Positions 6,042 through 24,919 of a stretch of 29,740 bases of DNA are shown here, one piece after another. Every line of letters begins with the position of its first letter. Position 1 is the first letter of the stretch. Origin of the DNA: a virus; IMG/VR virus record IMGVR_UViG_3300044535_000515, positions 1 through 29,740 of that record. One strand, written 5' to 3'. The notes beneath the pieces were generated by a model. The model saw only the letters and a list, made by a program, of their open reading frames with translations. It was not told where the DNA came from and did no database searches. Made by a program: the position numbers and the translations under genes.

Positions 6042-7478
6042 CTACTCCGTCACCACGGGTGCGTCAGCGGGGGCATCGGCGGGCGCGTCAGCAAGCGCGT
6101 CGGCGGGAACCTCGTCAGCGGCAGCGACCGTGAACGGCAGCGTGGCCGACTTCGCGTCCGAGTAGCCGACAGCGATGGTGTGAGCGCCAGCCGCGACAGT
6201 CGCCAGGTTCAGGTTGAACGAAGCGGCAGTAGCGGTAACGCCAGTAGCGGCTCCAACGTCAGTTCCGTCCAGGTACACGCGCAGGCCCGTGGCGAACAGC
6301 GTGCCAGCGAATGTCACGGCAACAGTGCCACCCGTGACACCCGTGTTCGGGGTGACCGTGGTCAGGGTCGGCTTCGCGTGGGCGACAGACACCGTGCGGC
6401 CATTCGACTGGACCGAGTTGGCGGGGACGCCGACCTTGAACTCGTAGGCCGTGAACGGGGCGTACTGCGACTTCGGCAGGGACACCGTGGCGCTGGTCGC
6501 TGACACGAACGTGAACGGCACCGATGCGAGGCTGCGGGTCACCGTCATGTTCGGGGTGAACTCCGTGCCAGCGAGGGTAATCACCATCGGGTCGGTGATG
6601 GACTCCCAAGCGGGAGCAGCAGGCGTGACAGACACCATCGTCGGGTTCGTTGCGGTTACGACCAGGTTCTTCGCTGTGGTGAACGTCTCACCCGTCATGC
6701 CGACCTGGATGGTGTACGTCTTGGCGACAGAGATCAGTGAGCGCGGCACCGACAGGTGCATCTCCGTAGCGGAGACGAACGTCATCGACCGCAGGGCCGT
6801 GCCGTTGTCAATGTTCGCCACCATGCCGTCACGGAAGTTCGTGCCCTTCAGCACCACGATGGTCGGGTCAGCCATCATCTGACGGTTGATCGACGCGGGG
6901 GTCAGGCTGGTCAGGGTCGGGTCAGCAGGCGGGGCAGGCGGCGGCGGGGTAACAGCCGTCACCAGGATCGTCTTAGCGGTGGACAGGTAGCCGACGTAGC
7001 CGACCTGAATCTGAAGCGACGAGTCGGGCGTGAACGTGTTGGCGGGGGCGGTGAACGTCACCTCAGTCGGGGTAACGAACGTGACAACGCCCACCTGGGC
7101 ACCGTTGATGAACACCGACTGGTCAGCCTTGAACCCTGAGCCGTTGATCGTGATGACAGTCGCGGAGCCAACAGCGTCACCGCTGACCACGCTGGGGGTC
7201 ACGGTCGTGATGTTCGGGGCGACAATGGCTGGCTGCTCAATCGGAGGGGCCACATTCGACGGCACGATGCGGTCAGGCAACTGGATCTCGTAGTCCTTCA
7301 GCGTCGGCTGGTCGGGGGCGAGATACGGGGTCATGCCGTAGTTCGGAGAAGCTGCGGTCACGTAGTCGCCGTGCGAGTCGTAGCCAGGGATCGGGGTCGT
7401 GCCGTGGCCGTCGTTCAGGGCGTCAATGTCAGCGTTCACAGGTGCGGGAGCAGCCTTCGTGGTTTTCTTAGCGGCCAT
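6042..7478 (-). CDS. four-domain Ig-like (IPT/TIG) virion surface protein
   Basis: This 478-residue protein has a basic, disordered N-terminus (1-85) and four tandem IPT/TIG-like Ig domains at about 88-175, 187-276, 278-366 and 369-452. Each opens with a Pro/Thr-rich strand of the form T-x-x-T-P and contains a G-x-x-F segment (GSGFKADQSV, GTNFRDGMV, GTEFTPNMTV, GTLFATGLR). A Pro-rich hinge (TPPPPAPPADP) separates domains 1 and 2, and an acidic Ala/Asp/Pro repeat ends the protein. Ig-like domains are common accessories on phage heads and tails and are thought to give weak binding to cell-surface glycans. The ATG overlaps the adaptor stop by one base (TGATG). It interrupts the usual adaptor-stopper order; whether it sits on the capsid, neck or tail is not decided by sequence. 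Confidence 0.8.
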   Translation of the reverse strand: MAAKKTTKAAPAPVNADIDALNDGHGTTPIPGYDSHGDYVTAASPNYGMTPYLAPDQPTLKDYEIQLPDRIVPSNVAPPIEQPAIVAPNITTVTPSVVSGDAVGSATVITINGSGFKADQSVFINGAQVGVVTFVTPTEVTFTAPANTFTPDSSLQIQVGYVGYLSTAKTILVTAVTPPPPAPPADPTLTSLTPASINRQMMADPTIVVLKGTNFRDGMVANIDNGTALRSMTFVSATEMHLSVPRSLISVAKTYTIQVGMTGETFTTAKNLVVTATNPTMVSVTPAAPAWESITDPMVITLAGTEFTPNMTVTRSLASVPFTFVSATSATVSLPKSQYAPFTAYEFKVGVPANSVQSNGRTVSVAHAKPTLTTVTPNTGVTGGTVAVTFAGTLFATGLRVYLDGTDVGAATGVTATAASFNLNLATVAAGAHTIAVGYSDAKSATLPFTVAAADEVPADALADAPADAPADAPVVTE

Positions 7479-9676: not shown

Positions 9677-12600
9677 CGAACTTCCCCACTTCCTCGGCGA
9701 TGATGTGAACGCCCCTGGGGGTTTCGTGTACCTCCAGGACCTTGAGTTTAGACCAGACGATGATTTCCTGTTCCCGCTTGACACGGGTGAAGCCTTCGAC
9801 TGGATAGCCGCTGGTACCGCCGCGAACCTCGACGAGGATGGAGCCAGCGCGGTCCTCGCCGCCGAACCTGCCTGACGCGACGCGGCGGTCAAAGGAGTGG
9901 GACCAGCCGCCCTGCGTATCGAGAATCTGGCCGATCTGGGCCTGGTTCTGAACGTAATCCCAAGCGGCCTTCTTGGAGCGCATGTCCATGCCTCGGTAGG
10001 TGGTGGAGGCGTACATGGGGGCGTTCTTGAACCAGGCCTCCACCTCGTCGTTGCGGGGCTTCTTTTCGGCCTTGTTGTACCAGCCCTTGACGTAGTTGCT
10101 GGTGTAACTGGTGATGTATTCAACGATCTTCTTCGCGTCGCCGTGGGCGGTGATCTTGGCGGGTAGAAGCTTGCCGTCAGCGGCCCCGTCCCACGCTTCC
10201 CGCCATTCGGCGTCGGTGACGTCGTCGTAGGGCGACTTGGATGGGTCGAGTTTCTTAGCTTCCCAGCCCTTGGCGGTGTCGGCTTTCGTGGCGCTGGTGG
10301 CCTTGGGTACGTCGATGACCCATTCGGGGCGTTCGATGCCTGGGAGTTTGACGTTGCCCTCTTTGGCGGCCTTGTTGAGGGCGGTAGTGGAGTTGGGGCC
10401 AGCGCCCGTGTTCGTGGGGTTGTGAATCCACTTGTCGCCGTCCCAGGTGAACGTGTCGCCCTTGTAGGTGCCTGTGACCTTCTCGCCGACCTGGGTAACG
10501 GTGGTTCCTTCGTAGGACCCTGACGCGGTCTTGGGGGTGCCGCCAGGCTTCCCCTGCGGCTCGCCCTTGATGAGGCCCTTGTAGGCGAGGTCGTCGTCCA
10601 GCGCCTTCGTGACGACGCTGTTGGCCTTGGTGCCCGACGAGTAGTTGTACCAGTAGCCGTTCTGCTTGGACCACTTGTATTGCGTCTTGCCGTAGGTGCC
10701 GTAGGCGTCGCCGTTCGTGGTGATGATGGTTTGGGTTGGCTTGGCGGGCGTGGGCTTGGCGATGGGCGTGGGGGCTGGGGCGGGGGCGGGCTTGGCTTTG
10801 AGGCTGACGGTGTTCACCGCGTCGGTCAGTTCTTCCTGGATGGAGAACGGGACGTTCTTGCCCGTCTGGAGGTCGGTCCACTTCTCCGTTGCGGTCTCGA
10901 AGTAATACGCCTTGCCGTCCTTCTCCACGGAGACGTAGAGCGTCTTGCCGTTGGCCTTGTGAATCCACACGTCGTAGCCCGCCACGTTGCCGTAATCGGT
11001 GGTGAGGCCAGCGTTCGCCATCGCTTCGTTGTAGCCCTGCGTTTCTTTCAGGGCGGCAGGTTTGACGGGGGTGGCGCTGGGGAGCGGCTTCTGGTCCTTG
11101 AACGCCAGCTTCTCCAGGTCGTCCAGGAGTACCTGATCGTTGTAGACGGCGGCGTTCTCAGCATCTACCCACTTGCCGCCCGTGCCCTTGCCCTTTACGT
11201 AGGCGACGCCCTTCGGCCCTTCCACGTACCACTGATCGGCGGAGGGGTCGTCGGGCGTGGCGAACCGCCAGAACTTCCAACTGCCCTGCGGCGAGGTGCC
11301 GTACTGCACGATGGAGCCGTTGTTCGTTTTGATCTCGAACATGGACTTGCCGAGTTCGGTGGCGACTGGGGCGGGCGGGTTCGCTTTGTCCCATTCGCCC
11401 AACAGGTCAGGCTTCCCTGCGGCGCGGGATGGCATCGCTTCCACGGCCTTGTCCAGGTTCTGGTTCAGGTATTCGTTGGCGAACTTGCCTGAATCGACTT
11501 CCGCCCATTGGCCCATCGTGGAGCCCGACTTCTGGTAGCCCTGGCCCTGGGGGCTTTCCGCGTAGAACTTGGGGCTCATCTCGCCGTTCTTGTCGGTGAA
11601 CCGCCAGAACCGCCAACCGTTCGCCTCGTAGAAAGTCGTCTGGAACACGGACGTGTCGTCGTGGATGTTGAGCATGGTCTTGCCGATGGCGGTTGTCGGC
11701 GTGGGGGCTTCCTGGACGGTGGCCTTGGCGTAGGCGCTGGCCAGGTTGTCAGCGATGTTGCTAGGCACCTGCTTCGTGACGCCGTTCTGGCCCACATGAA
11801 TCCACTTGCCCTCGGCCTTGTCCATGACCCAGGTGTGGCCGTTCTTTTCGGCCACGACGTCGTTGCCTGACGTCCAGAACTTGAAGTCGTTGGCGGTGCT
11901 GGCGGTGATCGGCTTGCCCTTGTCCTGCCAGTTGCCAATGAAGGCGTCGCCCATCTTCGTTTCGGGCTTCGGTACGGGAACGTCAGTCGGCTTGGGGGGC
12001 TCGTTCAGGACAGCCTTGGCAACCTTGGGCTGGACGGATGGCTGCCCGACCCCCAGGGCCTTGTCAGTTATGGTCTGCTTCGCGGCCTGCTCAGCGGGGT
12101 TCAGCGACTTGGCCGCAAGCTTCTTCGGCCCCATGACGCCATCAGCTTTCTTACCCTTGTTCAGGGTCCACGATGACCAGCCGTTCTTCGACGTTTTCAG
12201 TTCCAGGTCATTGACCTTCGTGTCCTCGTAGGGCTTGTACCGCTGGCCGTAGCCGAGTTTCGCGGCGGGCTCGTCCATGAGGACGGGGACGGTGACGCAT
12301 GTGCAGTTGGGGTGGCGGTAGGTGTCCACTTGGGCGGGGAAGATCGTCCCGTGGAGGGTTCGGCATACGTCACAGGCCCCAGGGCGGGCTACCCATCGCC
12401 AGCCGTGGATGAGGCCTTCGTGGGCGGCCTGCTGGTAGGTGGTGAGGCTGGCCTGGTCGTAGGCGCGGGCCATCGTGGTACGGGCGATCATGACCGAGCG
12501 GTACTGGCCCTGGCCGAATACGGGCCCTAGCGCGTCCTGGAAGCGTTTGGCGGCGACCTTGGGGCTTTCGCCCGTGACGAGGCTGAGGGTGAGGGCGTCG

Positions 12601-14797: not shown

Positions 14798-16051
14798 CTA
14801 CGTCGCGAAGGTCTGTATAGCGGCGACGGGGCGGGTCATCAGCGACGTCGCCGCCCACACGTAAGCGTCTAGGCGGTCAGGGCTGGAATCGCCTGGCACC
14901 CATTCAGTTAGCTGCTGTTCCAATTCTGGGAACACTCCAGCATGGTGAAGCTTCCCTTGTTCCATCAGGGCGGCGATGGGTTCAGCCCTGGTGTGCTTAC
15001 CTTTGCTCGCGGTGACTTTCTTGACGGGGACGTATGGGTCTACCGTTCGCAAGACCGAAAGCGCCATGTCCCCGCCATTATTGGTCTCGATGACGACCAT
15101 GTCCGCCTTGGCGCGGTGGTATTCGGCAACAACTGCTTTGGCCCACTCGTCGGGGCTGGCCTTCAGGGTGGAGTCCTTCAGGCAGTAGAGGTGACCGTCC
15201 TTGCGGCTCATCGTCACGATGCCCGTTTCGTCGGAGTCGGGGCCGTAGGTGACGGCGGGGTCCACGGCCACAACGGTTCTCTCTGGCGATTCGGGTTCAC
15301 TCCCCACTCGGGTTTCCTCGATCATCTTGAGCGTGAACAGAGCCCCCTCGACGTCCTCTAGGAGTTCGCCGTATAGCTCTTGCCTGCCGAGCCTGGTGCC
15401 TTCGTACCTGAGCCTGAACTCCTCCAGGGCGGCGGGTGACAGGTTGGCGGCGTTATCGAACGTGGAGCCCCTGGTGACGATGGTGGAGGGGTTCTTCAGG
15501 ACGCGCTTCGTTAGCTTGTTGGGTTTGGGGGTGGTGGTGACGAGGGTTTGGGGGTTCTCCCCCAGGCGGAGGCCGAACTTCAGTTGGTCCCAGGCGTCCT
15601 CGTACCGCCAGGCGGCCAGTTCGTCGCACCAGGCACCGTGATGCTGGGGGCCTCGGAGGCGTTCGGGTTCGTCAGCGGAGAAGCATTTGATCTTCGAGCC
15701 GTTGATGAGGTCGAGTTCGCCGTGTGAGCGGTTCCATCGGCGGACCATGCGGTAGCGGTCTAGGACGGCTTTCAGCCCTGATTCGCCTTCCACGCAGGTA
15801 TCGCGGGCGTCACCGAACGTGGGGGCGATGACGGCCCACCTGGTGCCAGGGTTGCTGATGGCGTTGTAGGCCATCCATTCCGCGCCGAGCCTGGTTTTGC
15901 CGAAGCCTCGGCCCGCTAGGACTAACCAGGTGTCCCATGAACTGTCAGGGGGTAACTGTGTCGGCCTGGCCCAGCGGTGACTCCACAGGTATCGGGCTGC
16001 CGCCAGCACTTGCAGCGAGGGCCCTTGCGAGTTGTTCGACTTCACGGTCAA
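14798..16051 (-). CDS. terL: terminase large subunit (packaging ATPase and nuclease)
   Basis: This 417-residue protein cuts concatemeric DNA and drives it into the prohead. Walker A is AGRGFGKT (46-53), Walker B ends at CDE (D143-E144), and the coupling motif is TTTP (172-175). The RNase H-like nuclease domain shows VAVDPA (D264), IETNNGGD (E322) and DRLDAY (D392, D395). The first codon is TTG at 16051, with GTG two codons later as an alternative; both lie within the TerS gene, an overlap of about 100 bases that is unusually long. An inner GTG near 16009 would shorten it. All catalytic motifs are present, so the enzyme should be functional. Confidence 0.97.
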   Translation of the reverse strand: MTVKSNNSQGPSLQVLAAARYLWSHRWARPTQLPPDSSWDTWLVLAGRGFGKTRLGAEWMAYNAISNPGTRWAVIAPTFGDARDTCVEGESGLKAVLDRYRMVRRWNRSHGELDLINGSKIKCFSADEPERLRGPQHHGAWCDELAAWRYEDAWDQLKFGLRLGENPQTLVTTTPKPNKLTKRVLKNPSTIVTRGSTFDNAANLSPAALEEFRLRYEGTRLGRQELYGELLEDVEGALFTLKMIEETRVGSEPESPERTVVAVDPAVTYGPDSDETGIVTMSRKDGHLYCLKDSTLKASPDEWAKAVVAEYHRAKADMVVIETNNGGDMALSVLRTVDPYVPVKKVTASKGKHTRAEPIAALMEQGKLHHAGVFPELEQQLTEWVPGDSSPDRLDAYVWAATSLMTRPVAAIQTFAT

Positions 16052-16502
16052 TGTCGGTCCCTGTTCCCTCGAAATGGGTTACGTCGGCGGCGATCTTGAT
16101 GGGCTGGTCGATGCCGAACATTTTGGAGCGGCGATCTAGAAGCTTCACCATCACTTCGGCGGCGTCCCTTCTGGGGGGCTGGCCGTTCAGCCCGAGGGCG
16201 AGGGGGAGCCAGACGCGGGTGAGGTGGTCTAGGCGTTCCTCCTCCTGCGCCCTGACCTCCTCAGCGGCTGGGCGAACCGTCTTGGCGAGGCCCCGCTGGT
16301 AGGCGCGGTAAGCCCCGCTTGCGTCCTGGTAGCCGAGGATTTCCGCGATACGGGTGAACGTGAAGCCACCTACGACCATCTCCAGGGTGCGCTTTTCGCG
16401 CTCGGCTTCTTCTACTTTGCGTTGGGGGGTTCGTTTTCCCCCTTTGGGGAGGCGTGGTTTTGATTCGTTTGGGGTTGTTTCGTGTTGAGGCGTTTCGGTC
16501 AT
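15945..16502 (-). CDS. terS: terminase small subunit
   Basis: This 185-residue protein begins at MTETPQHETT, preceded by a near-perfect AAAGGAGG; upstream in-frame codons lack such a site. A basic, disordered N-terminus (1-40) is followed by a helix-turn-helix-like segment (GFTFTRIAEILGYQDASGAY) and an oligomerisation region of long helices (about 85-150), then an Ala/Gly/Pro tail. Small terminases recognise the packaging site and load DNA into TerL. The ATG overlaps the preceding zinc-ribbon gene (ATGA). The packaging site, often within or near this gene, was not identified. Confidence 0.85.
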   Translation of the reverse strand: MTETPQHETTPNESKPRLPKGGKRTPQRKVEEAEREKRTLEMVVGGFTFTRIAEILGYQDASGAYRAYQRGLAKTVRPAAEEVRAQEEERLDHLTRVWLPLALGLNGQPPRRDAAEVMVKLLDRRSKMFGIDQPIKIAADVTHFEGTGTDIDREVEQLARALAASAGGSPIPVESPLGQADTVTP

Positions 16503-16639
16503 GTGTTGGCCTCCTTTCGTGGTCGTCCTTTGCGGTTCCATGTGGCGGCTTGGGCTCGTTGGGCTGCCCATGCTGCTTGGGCTAGGCAGTCGGGGCATTG
16601 GGCTTCGTGGTGGTGGAGTTCGCAGGTGGGGCAGGTCAT
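16499..16639 (-). CDS. 46-residue double-CxxC zinc-ribbon protein
   Basis: A very short gene with strong support: AAGGAGA lies 8 bases before its ATG, and it overlaps both neighbours by ATGA. The protein starts MTCPTCELHHHEAQCPDC, with two C-x2-C pairs 11-12 residues apart and a His cluster between them, a compact zinc ribbon. The rest is an Ala/Gln/Trp helix and a basic tail (NRKGRPRKE) that could bind DNA or RNA. It is translationally linked to the kinase upstream and TerS downstream. Function unknown; an accessory role in modification or packaging is possible. Confidence 0.75.
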   Translation of the reverse strand: MTCPTCELHHHEAQCPDCLAQAAWAAQRAQAATWNRKGRPRKEANT

Positions 16640-17160
16640 GGGCGTTCTCCTTGTATGACGGTGGTTATGTCTTGGAGGGTTCTTGGGTTGTGGGGGTTGC
16701 AGATGAGGGTTCCTGGGTAGTGGGAGAGGTTGATGGCGCGGGTTTGGCGGCCTGCTATCCAGGTGGGGTTTTGTTGGGTTCCTCGGGCTTGGCGTTGGAG
16801 TTGGGCGTGGTGGGGGTTGTGGAGGTAGATGGGGAGGATGGTGTGGCCTGCGGCGTGGGCGGCGTCCCAGAACTTTGGGGAGGCGAGGCGGTCCCCTTCT
16901 CCGATGATGAGTTGGGTATTGGGTTGTTCCTGTACCCACGCGATTGCTTTGGGCATGGCGTTGTAGGGCAGGGTGTCGGTTCCTGGGTGTTTGGGGTTTT
17001 TCGGCGTTGGGTTTCCGAGGGTGGTGATGCCGTTGGGCCAGGTGGCGTGCGCGAACGGCTGGGGGTGGAACGTTGGTTCCCCCTCAGTGAAGTGGTCGAG
17101 AAGCTTCTTGGTGAGGGTGGATTTCCCTACGCCTGGTTCTCCGAATAGGTACACGATCAT
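16636..17160 (-). CDS. P-loop kinase-like protein, candidate modified-base DNA kinase
   Basis: This 174-residue protein starts at MIVYLFGEPG, overlapping the dioxygenase stop (ATGA); the longer frame upstream is an Arg/Pro-rich shadow of that gene. Walker A is GEPGVGKST (G7-T15). LIIGEGDR (84-91) is a probable Walker B-like strand, and R123-R138 (with NPTWIAGR) fits a lid with Arg residues. In thymidine-hypermodifying phages, P-loop kinases phosphorylate 5-hydroxymethyl bases in DNA, and families of this kind have been predicted next to TET/JBP genes. Sequence alone does not prove the substrate; a nucleotide kinase or packaging ATPase remains possible. The gene is unusually rich in His, Pro, Asn, Thr and Gln codons. 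Confidence 0.75.
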   Translation of the reverse strand: MIVYLFGEPGVGKSTLTKKLLDHFTEGEPTFHPQPFAHATWPNGITTLGNPTPKNPKHPGTDTLPYNAMPKAIAWVQEQPNTQLIIGEGDRLASPKFWDAAHAAGHTILPIYLHNPHHAQLQRQARGTQQNPTWIAGRQTRAINLSHYPGTLICNPHNPRTLQDITTVIQGERP

Positions 17161-18017
17161 TGGATGAGGCCCGAGTTCTTTTGGCGTTCGATGAGGCCGT
17201 CTTCTAGTTCGACTTGGCGTGCTTGGGCGCGGTGGAGGGCGTCGGCGCTGGAGGGGGCGTTCTGGAAGCGTTTGACGGAGTAGTAGACGGCGGTGAAGCG
17301 GTATCCGCCTTTGAGGCTGCTGGTGATGGGGGTGACTCCGTGCATCATTCGCATGGCGGGGAAGAAGTAGAGGTCGCCGTCGCGGCTGGGGAGGGTGATG
17401 TTGTGTTCCGCTATGTGGAAGTGGCCGCCTCTGGTGCCTGCGCGGAGGGTGAACATGGCTGACCATGTGCCGATGACGTTGTTGCGGTCATAGTGGTAGT
17501 AGAGGCCTGCGGTGTCGTTCACGATGCCGCTGGTCCAGCAGGTGTCCCCCATGCGCCAGTCGGGGTGGACGTTGGCGCGGGCGGCCACGTTGGCGGCGTT
17601 GGGTGAGGTGGGGCCGAGGTCGGTGAGGATGCCCTGTGCCTGGTGGGCGAAGCTTGCGATGGTGTTGTGGCCTTCGGGGTCGTGTGTGGCCCAGGCGGCT
17701 ACTGAGGGGGCGATTCGGCGCATCATGGCGCTGGGGGCGACGAAGCCGAATGCGTTGGTCTTGGACGCCATGCCGCCTGCGCGGGCGACGGTCCCGAATC
17801 GGTGGCGTTGCCGCATGATGGCGTGGCGGCAAGCTTCCCGTTCTGCTTCAGGCATGGAAGCGATGAGTGTGAGGGGCGCGCCTGTATCGGCGTCCACCAG
17901 GAGTACGTCCCCTGGGGGTAGCGGGGTGGGCTCCTGGGCTGGGACGCGCTTGTTGGCGAGGCCCTTGGCTTCCTCGTCACTGAGGACTCTGGTGAGGCCG
18001 ATGATTTCCACGGTCAC
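17157..18017 (-). CDS. TET/JBP-like 2-oxoglutarate/Fe(II) dioxygenase, candidate DNA base oxidase
   Basis: This 286-residue protein starts at GTG, which overlaps the ParB-like stop (GTGA). The double-stranded beta-helix iron site is complete: H175-Y-D177 (in YYHYDRNN), distal H226 (MMHGVTP), and R240 in GGYRFTAVYYSV, which would bind 2-oxoglutarate. The surrounding pattern, with SGIVNDT before H-x-D, a Gly-Gly strand after it and GDLYFFP before the distal His, matches phage TET/JBP enzymes as I know them, as does the N-terminal GGMASKTNAFGF segment. Phage TET enzymes oxidise 5-methylcytosine to 5-hydroxymethylcytosine in DNA; JBP enzymes oxidise thymine. Which base is used here is unknown, and no C5-methyltransferase is visible in the window. 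Confidence 0.82.
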   Translation of the reverse strand: MTVEIIGLTRVLSDEEAKGLANKRVPAQEPTPLPPGDVLLVDADTGAPLTLIASMPEAEREACRHAIMRQRHRFGTVARAGGMASKTNAFGFVAPSAMMRRIAPSVAAWATHDPEGHNTIASFAHQAQGILTDLGPTSPNAANVAARANVHPDWRMGDTCWTSGIVNDTAGLYYHYDRNNVIGTWSAMFTLRAGTRGGHFHIAEHNITLPSRDGDLYFFPAMRMMHGVTPITSSLKGGYRFTAVYYSVKRFQNAPSSADALHRAQARQVELEDGLIERQKNSGLIQ

Positions 18018-21208: not shown

Positions 21209-22474
21209 TTATTCGGTCAGGCCCTCGGCCACGGTGTCCCGCAGCCACCAGTAAGACCCGTCGTTCGGGGTCTTGATGCGCTTCGGCCACCAGGTTTCAT
21301 CCCGAGAGCCGCGCCACTTCTCCACCGAGCCAGTACGGCCACAGCGATTACAGTCGGCTTCCTTGTGGGCTTCGCACAGTTCCTTGCGGAGTCCGATGCC
21401 CTGGCTGGCCCAGCGGCGCAGCGCAGATGAGCCAATGGGCCGCATAGCGCGCCGCCCATCGGGCCCCTCGTTGCCCATGTGATGCTCCAGCACCACGGAT
21501 ACCCCCTCGGACATGATGTGTTCCAGGGGGCGCTGGAACTTCCGCGTCTCGTCCTCGTCGGTGTAGCCACGGCTGGTGACGAGGTACAGCGGCCCGATCA
21601 CCAGGATGTCGGGGCGGTGGTGGTGGACAAGCCCACGCAAGAAGCCCTGGTCCGTCGGGTCGGTCAGATCGAACCTGCCCTGGCAGGGGTGGACTGCGAT
21701 GCGGTCCATCTGCTCCTGGCCGAACCTTCCATGCTTGGCCGCCTGAACTCCCACCTGGCGAAGCTGGTTCTGGATCTGCCCAGGGGTGTATTCGCCATCG
21801 ACGATCAAGGTGCGGCGCGGCTCGTAGTCCTTGGAGCGGTCCCACGGGTCGAACGGGTCGATGCCCATTGACGACGCGACGGCGATCTGGCGGAGGAACA
21901 CGGACTTACCCATGCCCTCGGTAGCCGTGACCATCAGGGACGTACCTGCGGGGAGCAGGCGCGGGATGGCCCACGACTGGTTCGGGAACTCCATCGCCAT
22001 GAACTGAGTCATCGTCGTGGCTTCCACCTTCGCCCCCGCCGTGGTGGCGGCCTTGGTCAGGTGGTCGGCACGCTGCTGGATGAACTCCACCGTCGAAGCG
22101 ACGGAACTGTTCTTGGCCATGTTGTCGATCTGGGCTGAGAACACACCCAGTTCCCGAGCCAGGTAGCGCTCGGCCAGAATGTTGATCTGGGTGTGGGGGC
22201 TGAGGACGTAGCGGCTGGCCTCCATCAGGTCCAGAAGCTTCGTAACCTCCACGCGAGGCCCATCACCCTTAGACCGCATCCTTTCCATGACGGTCATCGG
22301 GTCGATGGGGTCCTCGCGCACCAGCATTCCGACCATGTGCTCAGCCACGGTGGAGCGCCAGCCCGAGAACTGGCGCGGCTCCAGGGCCTCCATGAAATGC
22401 TTGCCGAGCCCCTTGGGGTCAGCGAGGAGGCATCCGAGGACTTCCTCCTCCAGGCGGTCAAGTACCTCGGTCAC
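21209..22474 (-). CDS. replicative helicase / RepA-like RecA-fold ATPase
   Basis: About 421 residues; two GTG codons stand together and the second (22474) gives a GTGA overlap and better spacing from AAGGAG. The N-terminal 150 residues resemble a DnaB N-domain (helical, EEEVLGCLLAD). The RecA-like core has Walker A ATEGMGKS (about 185-192), a Glu after the first strand (IVDGEY), a Walker B strand DILVIGP (290-296) and an EHHMG sensor-like segment. A Cys cluster (CNRCG) near 376-379 is an addition. It should unwind the replication fork, working with the loader-like and initiator genes upstream. Confidence 0.88.
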   Translation of the reverse strand: MTEVLDRLEEEVLGCLLADPKGLGKHFMEALEPRQFSGWRSTVAEHMVGMLVREDPIDPMTVMERMRSKGDGPRVEVTKLLDLMEASRYVLSPHTQINILAERYLARELGVFSAQIDNMAKNSSVASTVEFIQQRADHLTKAATTAGAKVEATTMTQFMAMEFPNQSWAIPRLLPAGTSLMVTATEGMGKSVFLRQIAVASSMGIDPFDPWDRSKDYEPRRTLIVDGEYTPGQIQNQLRQVGVQAAKHGRFGQEQMDRIAVHPCQGRFDLTDPTDQGFLRGLVHHHRPDILVIGPLYLVTSRGYTDEDETRKFQRPLEHIMSEGVSVVLEHHMGNEGPDGRRAMRPIGSSALRRWASQGIGLRKELCEAHKEADCNRCGRTGSVEKWRGSRDETWWPKRIKTPNDGSYWWLRDTVAEGLTE

Positions 22475-22848
22475 CACTCGCTCCTTGCCTCAACAGCCAG
22501 CGGCTTCGGGAAGTGGCCGAGGGAGGCCTTGGTCTCGCGCGCCTTGGCCAGGCACTCGTCGGTAGTCATCTCGCCCTTGTCGCGAAGCTCCCAGAGGGGC
22601 TTCATGATGGCGCCGTAGTCGGCCACCTTCTTGCGCCGCCAGCCTTCGCACACCTTGGCAGCCGTCAGGCCGCCCTCGTTCGTGCCGTAGTAGTCAGCCA
22701 CGAACTCGTACAGCCACGCGGCGCTCAGGTCGGGGGCGTTCTTGTTGAGGACGGCAGCCCAGGACATGACGGTCACGTCGTCCACGACCATGTACGGCTC
22801 GTGGGGCTTCATGAACGTCAGCATCTTGACGATCTCGGTCTGGTTCAT
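22471..22848 (-). CDS. possible helicase loader (G39P-like)
   Basis: This 125-residue protein overlaps the initiator stop (ATGA) and the helicase start. Its size, its place between a winged-helix initiator and a DnaB-like helicase, and an N-terminal helical pattern (EIVKMLTFM..., VMSWAAVLN) resemble helicase loaders of the SPP1 gp39 type. The C-terminal part has a basic WRRKKVADYGAI segment. No ATPase motif is present. The call rests on context; a replisome organiser role is also possible. Confidence 0.5.
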   Translation of the reverse strand: MNQTEIVKMLTFMKPHEPYMVVDDVTVMSWAAVLNKNAPDLSAAWLYEFVADYYGTNEGGLTAAKVCEGWRRKKVADYGAIMKPLWELRDKGEMTTDECLAKARETKASLGHFPKPLAVEARSEW

Positions 22849-23606
22849 GCGGTAATTCCTTTCTGGTTGGTGTTGGTTGATTCGTCACGGGCCGCTGCGC
22901 GTTCCAGCAGCCCGAGAACGTCGTTGTTGCGGCGTTCCACCGCACTCGCCCCGAACGGGGTCATGCCTTCGATCTGGATGCGAAGGGTGTTGGCCGTGAC
23001 AGGCCGCCCGTCATCAGCCAAGGCGGCAAGCCCCTCGGTGATCTGGGCATCCGAGTAGCCAGCCTTGACCGCCAGGGTTACCACGTTCCGAACGCCCTGG
23101 AAGCTCGTAAGCTTCACGACATCGGTGTAGGTCTTTGTCAGCCTGTTGGCCCTCTGCCCCACAGTTTCCACAGGGGCGTCAGCGATGAGCGCCAGCGAAT
23201 TGCTAACTGACGGTTCTACTGGTGGTTCTATTGACGGTTTATTAGGGGCTGGAGTTGGGGGGTTCATGCCGTTGGAGTTGGGGGGTTCGGTGCTGGAGTT
23301 GGGGGGTTCTGGGTTACCGACGGGCTCTGAACTCCCCAACTGAGTTGGGGTATTGAGGCGGTAGCGGGTGCTGTTGTTGGGGCCAGTACCGCCCCCCAAC
23401 TTCACCAGGTAGCCGTCATCCTCCATCTCGCGAACGACCTTGCGTACCCACTCTGTGGAACAACGGGCCTTGCTGGCGATCTTCCCCTGGGAAGGCCAGC
23501 AGTTACCCGCGTCGTCAGCCCAATCGGCCAGAGCGAGGTGCATGAGAAGCCTCTCCCCCTTGTACGGGGAGTGGTCCCAGACCCAGGTCATCAACTTGAT
23601 GCTCAC
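22845..23606 (-). CDS. winged-helix replication initiator with origin-like repeats inside its gene
   Basis: This 253-residue protein starts at GTG (GTGA overlap). Residues 1-85 form a winged helix-turn-helix (RLLMHLALADWADDAG, PSQGKIASKARCSTEWVRKV), as in many phage replisome initiators. Residues about 90-140 are a disordered Pro/Asn/Ser/Glu linker, encoded by the repeated DNA described separately. The C-terminal domain (about 150-225) is helical and ends in a basic segment. The layout, initiator with internal repeats followed by loader and helicase, parallels lambda O-P. The protein likely binds its own gene to start replication. Confidence 0.8.
   Translation of the reverse strand: MSIKLMTWVWDHSPYKGERLLMHLALADWADDAGNCWPSQGKIASKARCSTEWVRKVVREMEDDGYLVKLGGGTGPNNSTRYRLNTPTQLGSSEPVGNPEPPNSSTEPPNSNGMNPPTPAPNKPSIEPPVEPSVSNSLALIADAPVETVGQRANRLTKTYTDVVKLTSFQGVRNVVTLAVKAGYSDAQITEGLAALADDGRPVTANTLRIQIEGMTPFGASAVERRNNDVLGLLERAAARDESTNTNQKGITA
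23251..23403. repeat. iteron cluster, candidate replication origin
   Basis: GGAGTTGGGGGGTTC occurs three times without mismatch at 23251, 23274 and 23295 (spacing 23 and 21 bases). Further copies of the core AGTTGGGG follow as a palindrome CCCCAACT-G-AGTTGGGG (23334-23350) and an inverted copy near 23394. In all there are six cores in about 150 bases. An A/T-richer stretch (about 23195-23247, including GACGGTTTATTAG) adjoins. Helical phasing, an adjacent unwinding region and location within the initiator gene fit an iteron-type origin. Confidence 0.65.
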
Positions 23607-23764
23607 AGGACGACCACCATTACGTCCACAGAGCGCGCAGAGGCCAGAGCCCCGAACACCTCCCTGGCATGGACAGGGCAGCAGCCCTCATGGACGTCGC
23701 GCTTCACGAACTGGAACTTGACGATGCCTTCTTCCAGGCAGCCCTGGATGTCACAGACGCTCAT
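23603..23764 (-). CDS. 53-residue Cys/His-rich protein
   Basis: A small gene that overlaps its upstream neighbour (ATGA) and the initiator (GTGA). The protein begins MSVCDIQGCLEEG and contains GCCPVHAREV, giving four Cys and two His that could hold one zinc. The C-terminus is a hydrophobic strand (VDVMVVVL). No family is recognised. Being overlapped on both sides in the operon makes it likely to be real. Confidence 0.65.
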   Translation of the reverse strand: MSVCDIQGCLEEGIVKFQFVKRDVHEGCCPVHAREVFGALASARSVDVMVVVL

Positions 23765-24111
23765 GCCGTCACCTGCGGCGGGTCAGTCGGGCAGACCGCC
23801 GTCATCGCGTGATACGAAGCTTCAGCCTGAGCATCGCCAACCTGGCCAGCCGTCTCAAAGACCAGCGCCTCAGCGAAATCCTGGGCATCCTCGTCCTCGA
23901 TGGGCGGGGTGAACACGATCTCGTCATCGCCGTGAGCGTCCGAGTACCGCATGTTGCGGGTCCAACCGTGGGTCTTGCCGTCAGGGAACGTGAAGGTTCC
24001 TGCGCCCTGGGAGCCGCCAATCATGGGGCCGACCCAGGTTCTATGCCACACCACAGACGCGGTATGACCATCAAGAGTGGCCGTCAGGGCCACAGGTATG
24101 CTACTTTCCAC
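23761..24111 (-). CDS. hypothetical 116-residue protein opening the replication operon
   Basis: The start is GTG at 24111, with AAAGG about 11 bases upstream. The protein is acidic and beta-rich at first (VALTATLDGHTASVVWHRTW, GAGTFTFPDGKTHGWTRN) and helical afterwards, with no membrane segment or catalytic motif. It is the first gene after a 166-base gap with two hairpins, and is translationally joined to the Cys-rich gene. Function unknown. Confidence 0.75.
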   Translation of the reverse strand: MESSIPVALTATLDGHTASVVWHRTWVGPMIGGSQGAGTFTFPDGKTHGWTRNMRYSDAHGDDEIVFTPPIEDEDAQDFAEALVFETAGQVGDAQAEASYHAMTAVCPTDPPQVTA

Positions 24112-24171: not shown

Positions 24172-24219
24172 TGGGCGGCGGGGTGGTTCCCGCCGCCCAA
24201 TCCCATTTCGGAGGGATTG
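24172..24219. terminator. two adjoining hairpins between the recombination and replication operons
   Basis: An 11-bp perfect stem (TGGGCGGCGGG at 24172-24182 with 24189-24199, 6-base loop) touches a 7-bp stem (CAATCCC at 24198-24204 with 24213-24219, 8-base loop); they share two bases, so both cannot form fully. They fill the 166-base gap between the Cas4-like gene and the 116-residue gene. No T run follows. A terminator or attenuator for leftward transcription is likely; the rest of the gap holds no gene I can support. Confidence 0.5.
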
Positions 24220-24277: not shown

Positions 24278-24919
24278 CTACATGCTCGACGGACAAGCTC
24301 CCCCGAAGAAACCGCAGTAGTGCTTGCAGAAGCGTGCGGGCTTCTCAGGCGGCGGCGCGGTCTCCCGAGCCTTCACCTCTGCCAGCCACTCCAGGGCCTC
24401 CAGGGCCATCTCCTCGCTGTACGGCTCCGAGTGAACGCGAATGTCGTCCTCGTCACCGTCACGGCAGATAGCCACCAGGTTCACCGTCTTGACCTGATGC
24501 TCCTCGCTCAGGAGCCAGCCGTAGACCTGAACCTGCCAGCGCTGCTGCTTGCTGGGGAAATACTTGACGTTCTTCTTGGTCGTGGTCTTGTAATCAACCA
24601 CCGCACCCTGAAGCTTGTCGAACAGGTCAACATGGCCCATCATCTCGCCACGCTGGACTTCCACCTCCCGAAGGAAGCGTTCCCCGAACGGGTCCACCCG
24701 CTCCACCGCCAGGTCCAACTGCTCATGAATGGCGGTCCCCATCCAGGCGGCCAGCGCCTTCGTGTCGAAGTTCGTCACCGCGTCACCCTGGAGCTTGTGC
24801 CACACCTTGCGGCGGCAGCCCCCCAGTTCACTCGGCCCGATCTTCACCTGGCTGCTGCGCGGCTTCGCGTCGTCCTGGCCGTAGATGGCCTTCAGAACGA
24901 AGCTTCTAATCTCATCCAT
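24278..24919 (-). CDS. Cas4-like RecB-family nuclease
   Basis: This 213-residue protein starts at ATG with GGAGG upstream, one base after the preceding stop. It shows the PD-(D/E)XK core in order: H65 (GTAIHEQLD), D98 (GHVDLFD), D109-Y-K111 (VVDYKTT) and a Q-x3-Y element (QVQVYGWLL). Four Cys that would hold an iron-sulfur cluster are present: C35, C198, C202 and C209. This is the Cas4 / AddB-like layout. With no CRISPR genes here, its likely role is a phage recombination exonuclease that makes single strands for the annealing protein upstream. Confidence 0.9.
   Translation of the reverse strand: MDEIRSFVLKAIYGQDDAKPRSSQVKIGPSELGGCRRKVWHKLQGDAVTNFDTKALAAWMGTAIHEQLDLAVERVDPFGERFLREVEVQRGEMMGHVDLFDKLQGAVVDYKTTTKKNVKYFPSKQQRWQVQVYGWLLSEEHQVKTVNLVAICRDGDEDDIRVHSEPYSEEMALEALEWLAEVKARETAPPPEKPARFCKHYCGFFGGACPSSM

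Follow-up and report, generated by a model that had tools for sequence, protein, structure and literature searches.

Where does a phage that encodes its own replication initiator begin replication? The question is raised by the 23195-23403 region of the IMG/VR virus record IMGVR_UViG_3300044535_000515, the whole of which (positions 1 to 29,740; 29,740 bases) constitutes the window analyzed here. This region lies within a gene for a predicted lambda-O-like replication initiator, and a reading made from the sequence alone (hereafter the sequence-only reading) had proposed that it is an iteron-like origin placed in the linker-coding part of that gene. Computation supports this proposal: with a probability of roughly 85%, we predict that the region is a theta-replication origin inside the phage's own initiator gene, with repeats placed where the annotated iterons of lambda lie in O. 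In-gene origins are an already known kind, with examples from lambda, SPP1, TP901-1 and pSK41. We further lean, if only slightly, towards the view that O-like phage initiators across several phyla share a two-part in-gene origin: iterons that coevolve with the recognition helix of the initiator, and an undescribed, conserved array of AACCRTCA words that would act as a single-stranded DNA (ssDNA) melting or helicase-loading element.

The initiator gene and its iterons

The protein encoded at 22845-23606 is, judging by its sequence, a lambda-O-like initiator: residues 1-137 match phrog_391 (replication initiation O-like) with E 3.3e-18; HTH_36 is the sole Pfam family that reaches the cut-off; and the RepA_N profile gives no match, even at E 10. 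The winged-helix domain claimed earlier is recovered in a confident AlphaFold2 model, and a Foldseek search with it places the N-terminal domains of plasmid initiators (4pql/4pt7; E 0.002-0.006) on top, with many other winged helices close behind. The linker that follows this domain is probably disordered, as suggested by its low predicted local distance difference test (pLDDT) scores, and it is the part of the gene coding for this linker that contains most of the repeats, as the sequence-only reading had it (Table 1).

The repeats are built on the core AGTTGGGG, of which the gene contains six exact copies: one in each of three direct repeats, one in each arm of a palindrome and a sixth in inverted orientation. 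The 17-bp palindrome and the inverted copy are exactly as first read; the three perfect direct copies are present as well, but they are 16 bp long, one more than the 15 bp originally ascribed to them. The direct copies of TGGAGTTGGGGGGTTC are spaced by steps of 23 and 21 nt. Counting both strands, AGTTGGGG occurs 8 times in the window, 6 of them within the 149 bases of 23253-23401, whereas dinucleotide shuffles of the whole window average 1.34 and never exceed 5. Likewise, in synonymous-codon shuffles of the gene, which preserve both the protein and its codon usage, six copies of any 8-mer are seen in 0 of 1,000 and three copies of any 15-mer also in 0 of 1,000. The 23 nt between copies 1 and 2 is not a multiple of 3, and hence the same DNA is used in different reading frames: EPPNS is encoded in a common frame by two of the three direct copies, and copy 1 lies in another. 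As the core copies thus span different frames and both strands, selection acts on the DNA.

Conservation of the repeats across relatives

Relatives of the initiator were gathered by protein searches of IMG/VR, named bacterial genomes and phage records, with 61 coming from the second viral scan and 25 from named genome contigs. One of these, another IMG/VR contig (L004), is identical to the window over 6.76 kb; the rest mostly show 25-51% identity over the best segment. For the repeat statistics we used 69 representatives with less than 60% identity, with a 7-mer test that covers codons 75-155 and can also catch the AACCRTCA module described below. The commonest linker 7-mer averages 4.62 copies, the corresponding figures being 2.55 for synonymous shuffles and 2.10 for the part that codes for the winged helix, and 7-mer repeats exceed those of synonymous shuffles at p<=0.05 (per gene, uncorrected for multiple tests) in 53 of the 69 relatives. 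Of the 65 genes in which the count is at least three, 61 use more than one frame or strand. Inspection by eye together with counting indicates that most relatives have, in the linker following the winged-helix domain, a repeated or palindromic word of their own. The sequence-only reading had named relatives that conserve the protein repeats and not the DNA repeats as evidence against an origin; the opposite is observed, with the DNA repeats kept in place in mixed frames and strands and the peptide not conserved.

A second, directional array adjoining the iterons

An A/T-richer stretch had been noted next to the iterons. This flank is real (44.7% G+C over 47 nt, as against 60.9% for the gene), but rather than being a plain stretch it is made up of three AACCRYCA words, which read, from 23239 down to 23208, AACCGTCA-ATAG-AACCACCA-GTAG-AACCGTCA. 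The array starts 13 nt past the last iteron core in the direction of the gene. With no prior choice of word, the commonest 8-mer of the family linkers is AACCATCA, found in 31 of the 69 genes, and AACCGTCA is found in 23 of the 69.

Across 71 representatives, AACCRTCA has 85 copies on the coding strand versus a single antisense one, and two or more copies are found in 38% of the representatives versus 0.9% of synonymous shuffles. All three frames are used (19/47/19), with an excess of one frame that suggests some protein-level or inherited component. The steps between words are 10-13 nt in 36 of 41 instances; the array stretch is AT-richer than its own gene in 46 of 51 cases; and the distance from the last iteron core to the array has a median of 21.5 nt across the family. 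Both modules are under selection at the level of DNA, and their order and direction are fixed.

The array can also be recovered independently of the protein. A scan of IMG/VR contigs for three AACCRTCA words separated by 2-5-nt gaps returned at least 120 contigs, in at least 89 of which the array lies on the coding strand of an open reading frame (ORF) with a winged-helix domain (frames 20/45/24 among the matches listed). Roughly half of the other 31 listed matches seem to be initiator fragments at contig ends and about a third are ACCGTA/ACCGTC simple repeats; they also include two DnaD-like initiators and a few other proteins or non-coding stretches. A control scan of the complete IMG/VR with the reversed word, which has half the degeneracy, returned 11 contigs. 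Named hosts with the array belong to the Actinomycetota, the alpha-, beta- and gammaproteobacteria and the Campylobacterota, with a variant form, AACCGTCC, in Actinopolyspora.

Other variant words are distributed by initiator subgroup: GATCCRTCA or ATCCRTCA in the SfII/YeP1 types and AACCAGTCA in the Klebsiella phage type. Across L010, L228, L240, L310, L311, L220 and L221, GATCCRTCA or ATCCGTCA is found in the MS[VT]KL types and AACCAGTCA in the MS[ML]xLM types. Outside the O-like set, DnaD-like phage initiators bear tandem arrays of CAACCATCAAG in their linkers, as in L131 near 7162-7191 (reverse strand) and L210 near 11993-12022 (array strand).

Coupling of iteron sequence to the recognition helix

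Across the family, the sequence of the iterons follows the residues of the recognition helix. The coupling test took each linker truncated at its first AACCRTCA word, if present, and regressed out overall winged-helix identity. Iteron content is best predicted by columns 55 (z 5.8) and 56 (z 5.4), followed by 51, 49, 74 and 52; among 40 domains with less than 55% identity, column 55 keeps the top rank (z 5.4), ahead of 52 and 56. Since residues 51-64 form the recognition helix in the model, the coupling sits on the part expected to touch DNA. GTGTCA-type repeats accompany helices ending VQR in 7 of 9 genes, versus 1 of 32 with other VQx helices (Fisher p 1.2e-5), a rule first noticed by visual inspection of some of these data; VQ-non-R helices show a weak association with [TC]GCA repeats (Fisher p 0.04).

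A natural swap is provided by two groups of relatives: L020, L023 and L029 versus L030, L033, L035, L046, L050 and L051. Between them the identity is 98% in residues 1-40, 53% in the helix-turn-helix (HTH) and 43% in the linker. The iterons have all changed in concert, being TGACACAGTGTCA in the one and TGCAC-type in the other, and the downstream array is nearly unchanged.

Comparison with known origins

The comparison with lambda O in the sequence-only reading proves apt, with the annotated iterons of lambda at the same kind of place in O. The two share an initiator with an N-terminal DNA-binding domain, iterons within its gene (four in O, 20-24 nt apart) and a putative melting stretch 3' of them; lambda O binds its four in-gene iterons and also the ssDNA of the AT-rich tract (PMC7466680). 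They differ in iteron sequence, in the lack from O of both AACCRTCA and the initial MSIKLM segment, and in the use by lambda of P and the host DnaB, whereas the phage in the window encodes a DnaB-like helicase. In SPP1, oriL is located in gene 38 (PMC6316719), and gp38-gp39-gp40 form, by description, a similar three-gene set; nothing, however, marks the 125-aa protein of the window as a homologue of gp39. The initiators of TP901-1 (ORF13) and Tuc2009 (Rep2009) bind repeats in their own genes (PMC8965321), and are alike, by description, as phage initiators whose in-gene direct repeats serve as ori. In pSK41 the origin is internal to rep, and the region of pPR9 that bears HTH_36 is capable of autonomous replication (PMC5703833). 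Here the likeness is of an in-rep origin that codes for a linker and is bound by a winged-helix N-terminal domain, which in pPR9 is of the same PF13730 family as in the window protein; RepA-type N-terminal domains are also its top fold matches. The window protein, however, has no RepA_N match, resides in a phage and has other iterons.

Of the systems compared, RK2 TrfA, with the 13-mers of its DNA unwinding element, offers the nearest analogy for how the AACCRTCA array may work. TrfA binds the repeated words of this element as ssDNA, on one strand only (PMC4081077), and both systems have repeated strand-specific words beside iterons, with three words here and the strand bias noted above in the family. 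RK2, however, is a plasmid, its Rep has two winged-helix domains and its words are unrelated. In the open-access literature, text string searches, crude as they are, turned up no paper that describes the shared array or the correspondence between helix and iterons; those with AACCATCA and TGATGGTT returned only papers that look unrelated by title.

A proposed mechanism and its alternatives

The above observations are consistent with the following sequence of events. The winged-helix domain would bind the AGTTGGGG iterons and build a nucleoprotein core; the bound initiator may then melt the AT-richer DNA alongside; the AACCRTCA words there, all in one direction, would most likely be captured as ssDNA, on one strand, by the initiator or a phage partner; and the helicase encoded two genes downstream might then be loaded, conceivably via the 125-aa protein. 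The origin DNA would thereby be placed in a linker whose peptide can vary freely.

Several points weigh against an origin of this form. The array stretch is only mildly AT-rich compared to the flank on the same side in lambda, which has 22.5% G+C over 40 nt. In L005 and L006, relatives with a similar core, core-like copies number just one or two, and the 7-mer test gives no significance for L005. What makes the 125-aa protein a possible helicase loader is its position only. A check of cumulative GC skew, suggested by the sequence-only reading, proved uninformative: the maximum falls near 20-23.5 kb, and we rejected it as evidence for an origin, as its sign is opposite to that of a textbook origin and gene orientation alone could explain it.

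Repressors are common among winged-helix proteins, and Rep proteins of the iteron type are also capable of autoregulation. Hence, the repeats could be sites at which the initiator acts to repress or adjust its own transcription, with replication beginning elsewhere. However, the sites lie 200-360 nt into the gene, away from the promoter, and do so in most relatives; they adjoin a directional second array; and it is at such a place that lambda, SPP1, TP901-1 and pSK41 have their origins, so that we regard regulation as an improbable account of the repeats. Still less credible is that they are a feature of the protein, namely Pro/Asn-rich linker repeats arising by local duplication, with their DNA identity being incidental. 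Proline-rich linkers are common, and the two EPPNS-encoding copies do share a frame. Yet copy 1 is in another frame, the palindrome and inverted copies are on the other strand, the copy number is never reached by synonymous shuffles, and the relatives likewise mix frames and strands, with the array in all three frames. Both a role in transcription regulation only and the protein-repeat explanation were therefore rejected on the basis of position, frames, strands and shuffles.

A further alternative concerns just one step of the origin model: the reader of the second array might be a conserved factor of the host, and not the phage initiator or its partner. The word recurs in initiators that differ in their recognition helices and C-terminal parts and whose hosts belong to several phyla, and it is also found in DnaD-like initiators, all of which fits a host reader. 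The variant words, however, track the initiator subgroup and not the host, though hosts overlap, which favors a reader encoded by the phage, if not conclusively. We thus consider a host reader rather unlikely, but appreciably less so than the other two alternatives are for the locus as a whole.

Genomic context

The initiator gene is followed by the 125-aa ORF and the helicase gene, both of which overlap their predecessor. The 125-aa ORF has no Pfam or PHROG match and, in IMG/VR, only an identical copy; its single-sequence model is all-helical but of low confidence (pLDDT 53). The helicase gene additionally shows a match to the DnaB N-terminal domain just under the cut-off. Upstream of the initiator is a gene for a PD-(D/E)XK/Cas4-like exonuclease (24278-24919, minus strand). 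Upstream of the ORF at 23761-24111 lies an inverted repeat (24172-24199), G+C-rich and perfect over 11 bp, whose loop measures 6 nt; it may act as a terminator or as an operator. Further away, nucleotide composition is strongly skewed locally at 16000-17500 (GC skew reaching +0.37, AT skew near -0.45), and the minus-strand ORF at 16636-17466 has a GEPGVGKST P-loop behind a C-rich front, rich in Pro/His/Arg. At the right end of the window, profile matches identify serine integrase and repressor-like genes, which indicate that the phage is most likely temperate.

Table 1. Features of the predicted origin and its neighborhood (window coordinates)
Feature	Coordinates	Strand	Details
O-like replication initiator gene	22845..23606	-	253 aa, GTG start; phrog_391, HTH_36
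Winged-helix DNA-binding domain, residues 1-90	23337..23606	-	AlphaFold2 pLDDT 91-97 (residues 1-70), about 80 (71-90)
Recognition helix, residues 51-64	23415..23456	-	helix in AlphaFold2 model; residues 55, 56, 51, 52 covary with iterons
Linker, residues 91-145, with most repeats	23172..23336	-	pLDDT block means 44-61
Inverted iteron core CCCCCCAACT, at wing-coding edge	23392..23401	-	exact
17-bp palindrome CCCCAACTGAGTTGGGG, two facing iteron cores	23334..23350	.	exact
Iteron copy TGGAGTTGGGGGGTTC, 16 bp	23294..23309	+	exact repeat
Iteron copy TGGAGTTGGGGGGTTC, 16 bp	23273..23288	+	exact repeat
Iteron copy TGGAGTTGGGGGGTTC, 16 bp	23250..23265	+	exact repeat
Second module AACCGTCA, AACCACCA, AACCGTCA, 12-nt steps	23208..23239	-	three AACCRYCA words
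125-aa ORF	22471..22848	-	overlaps initiator by 4 nt; helicase-loader candidate by position only
DnaB-like/AAA_25 helicase gene	21209..22477	-	AAA_25 E 4.3e-18; phrog_239, phrog_19

Implications

To our knowledge, in-gene phage origins, though textbook material for lambda, are hardly annotated elsewhere. The AACCRTCA array offers a simple DNA signature by which such origins may be located without a protein search. The link between helix and iterons implies that origin specificity could be predicted from a few residues, which is testable by swaps. The locus provides, moreover, a clear example of a coding sequence whose three frames are all constrained by a non-coding function. If the array is indeed read as ssDNA in the manner of the TrfA 13-mers, then sequence-specific melting elements would be present in a very large group of phages.
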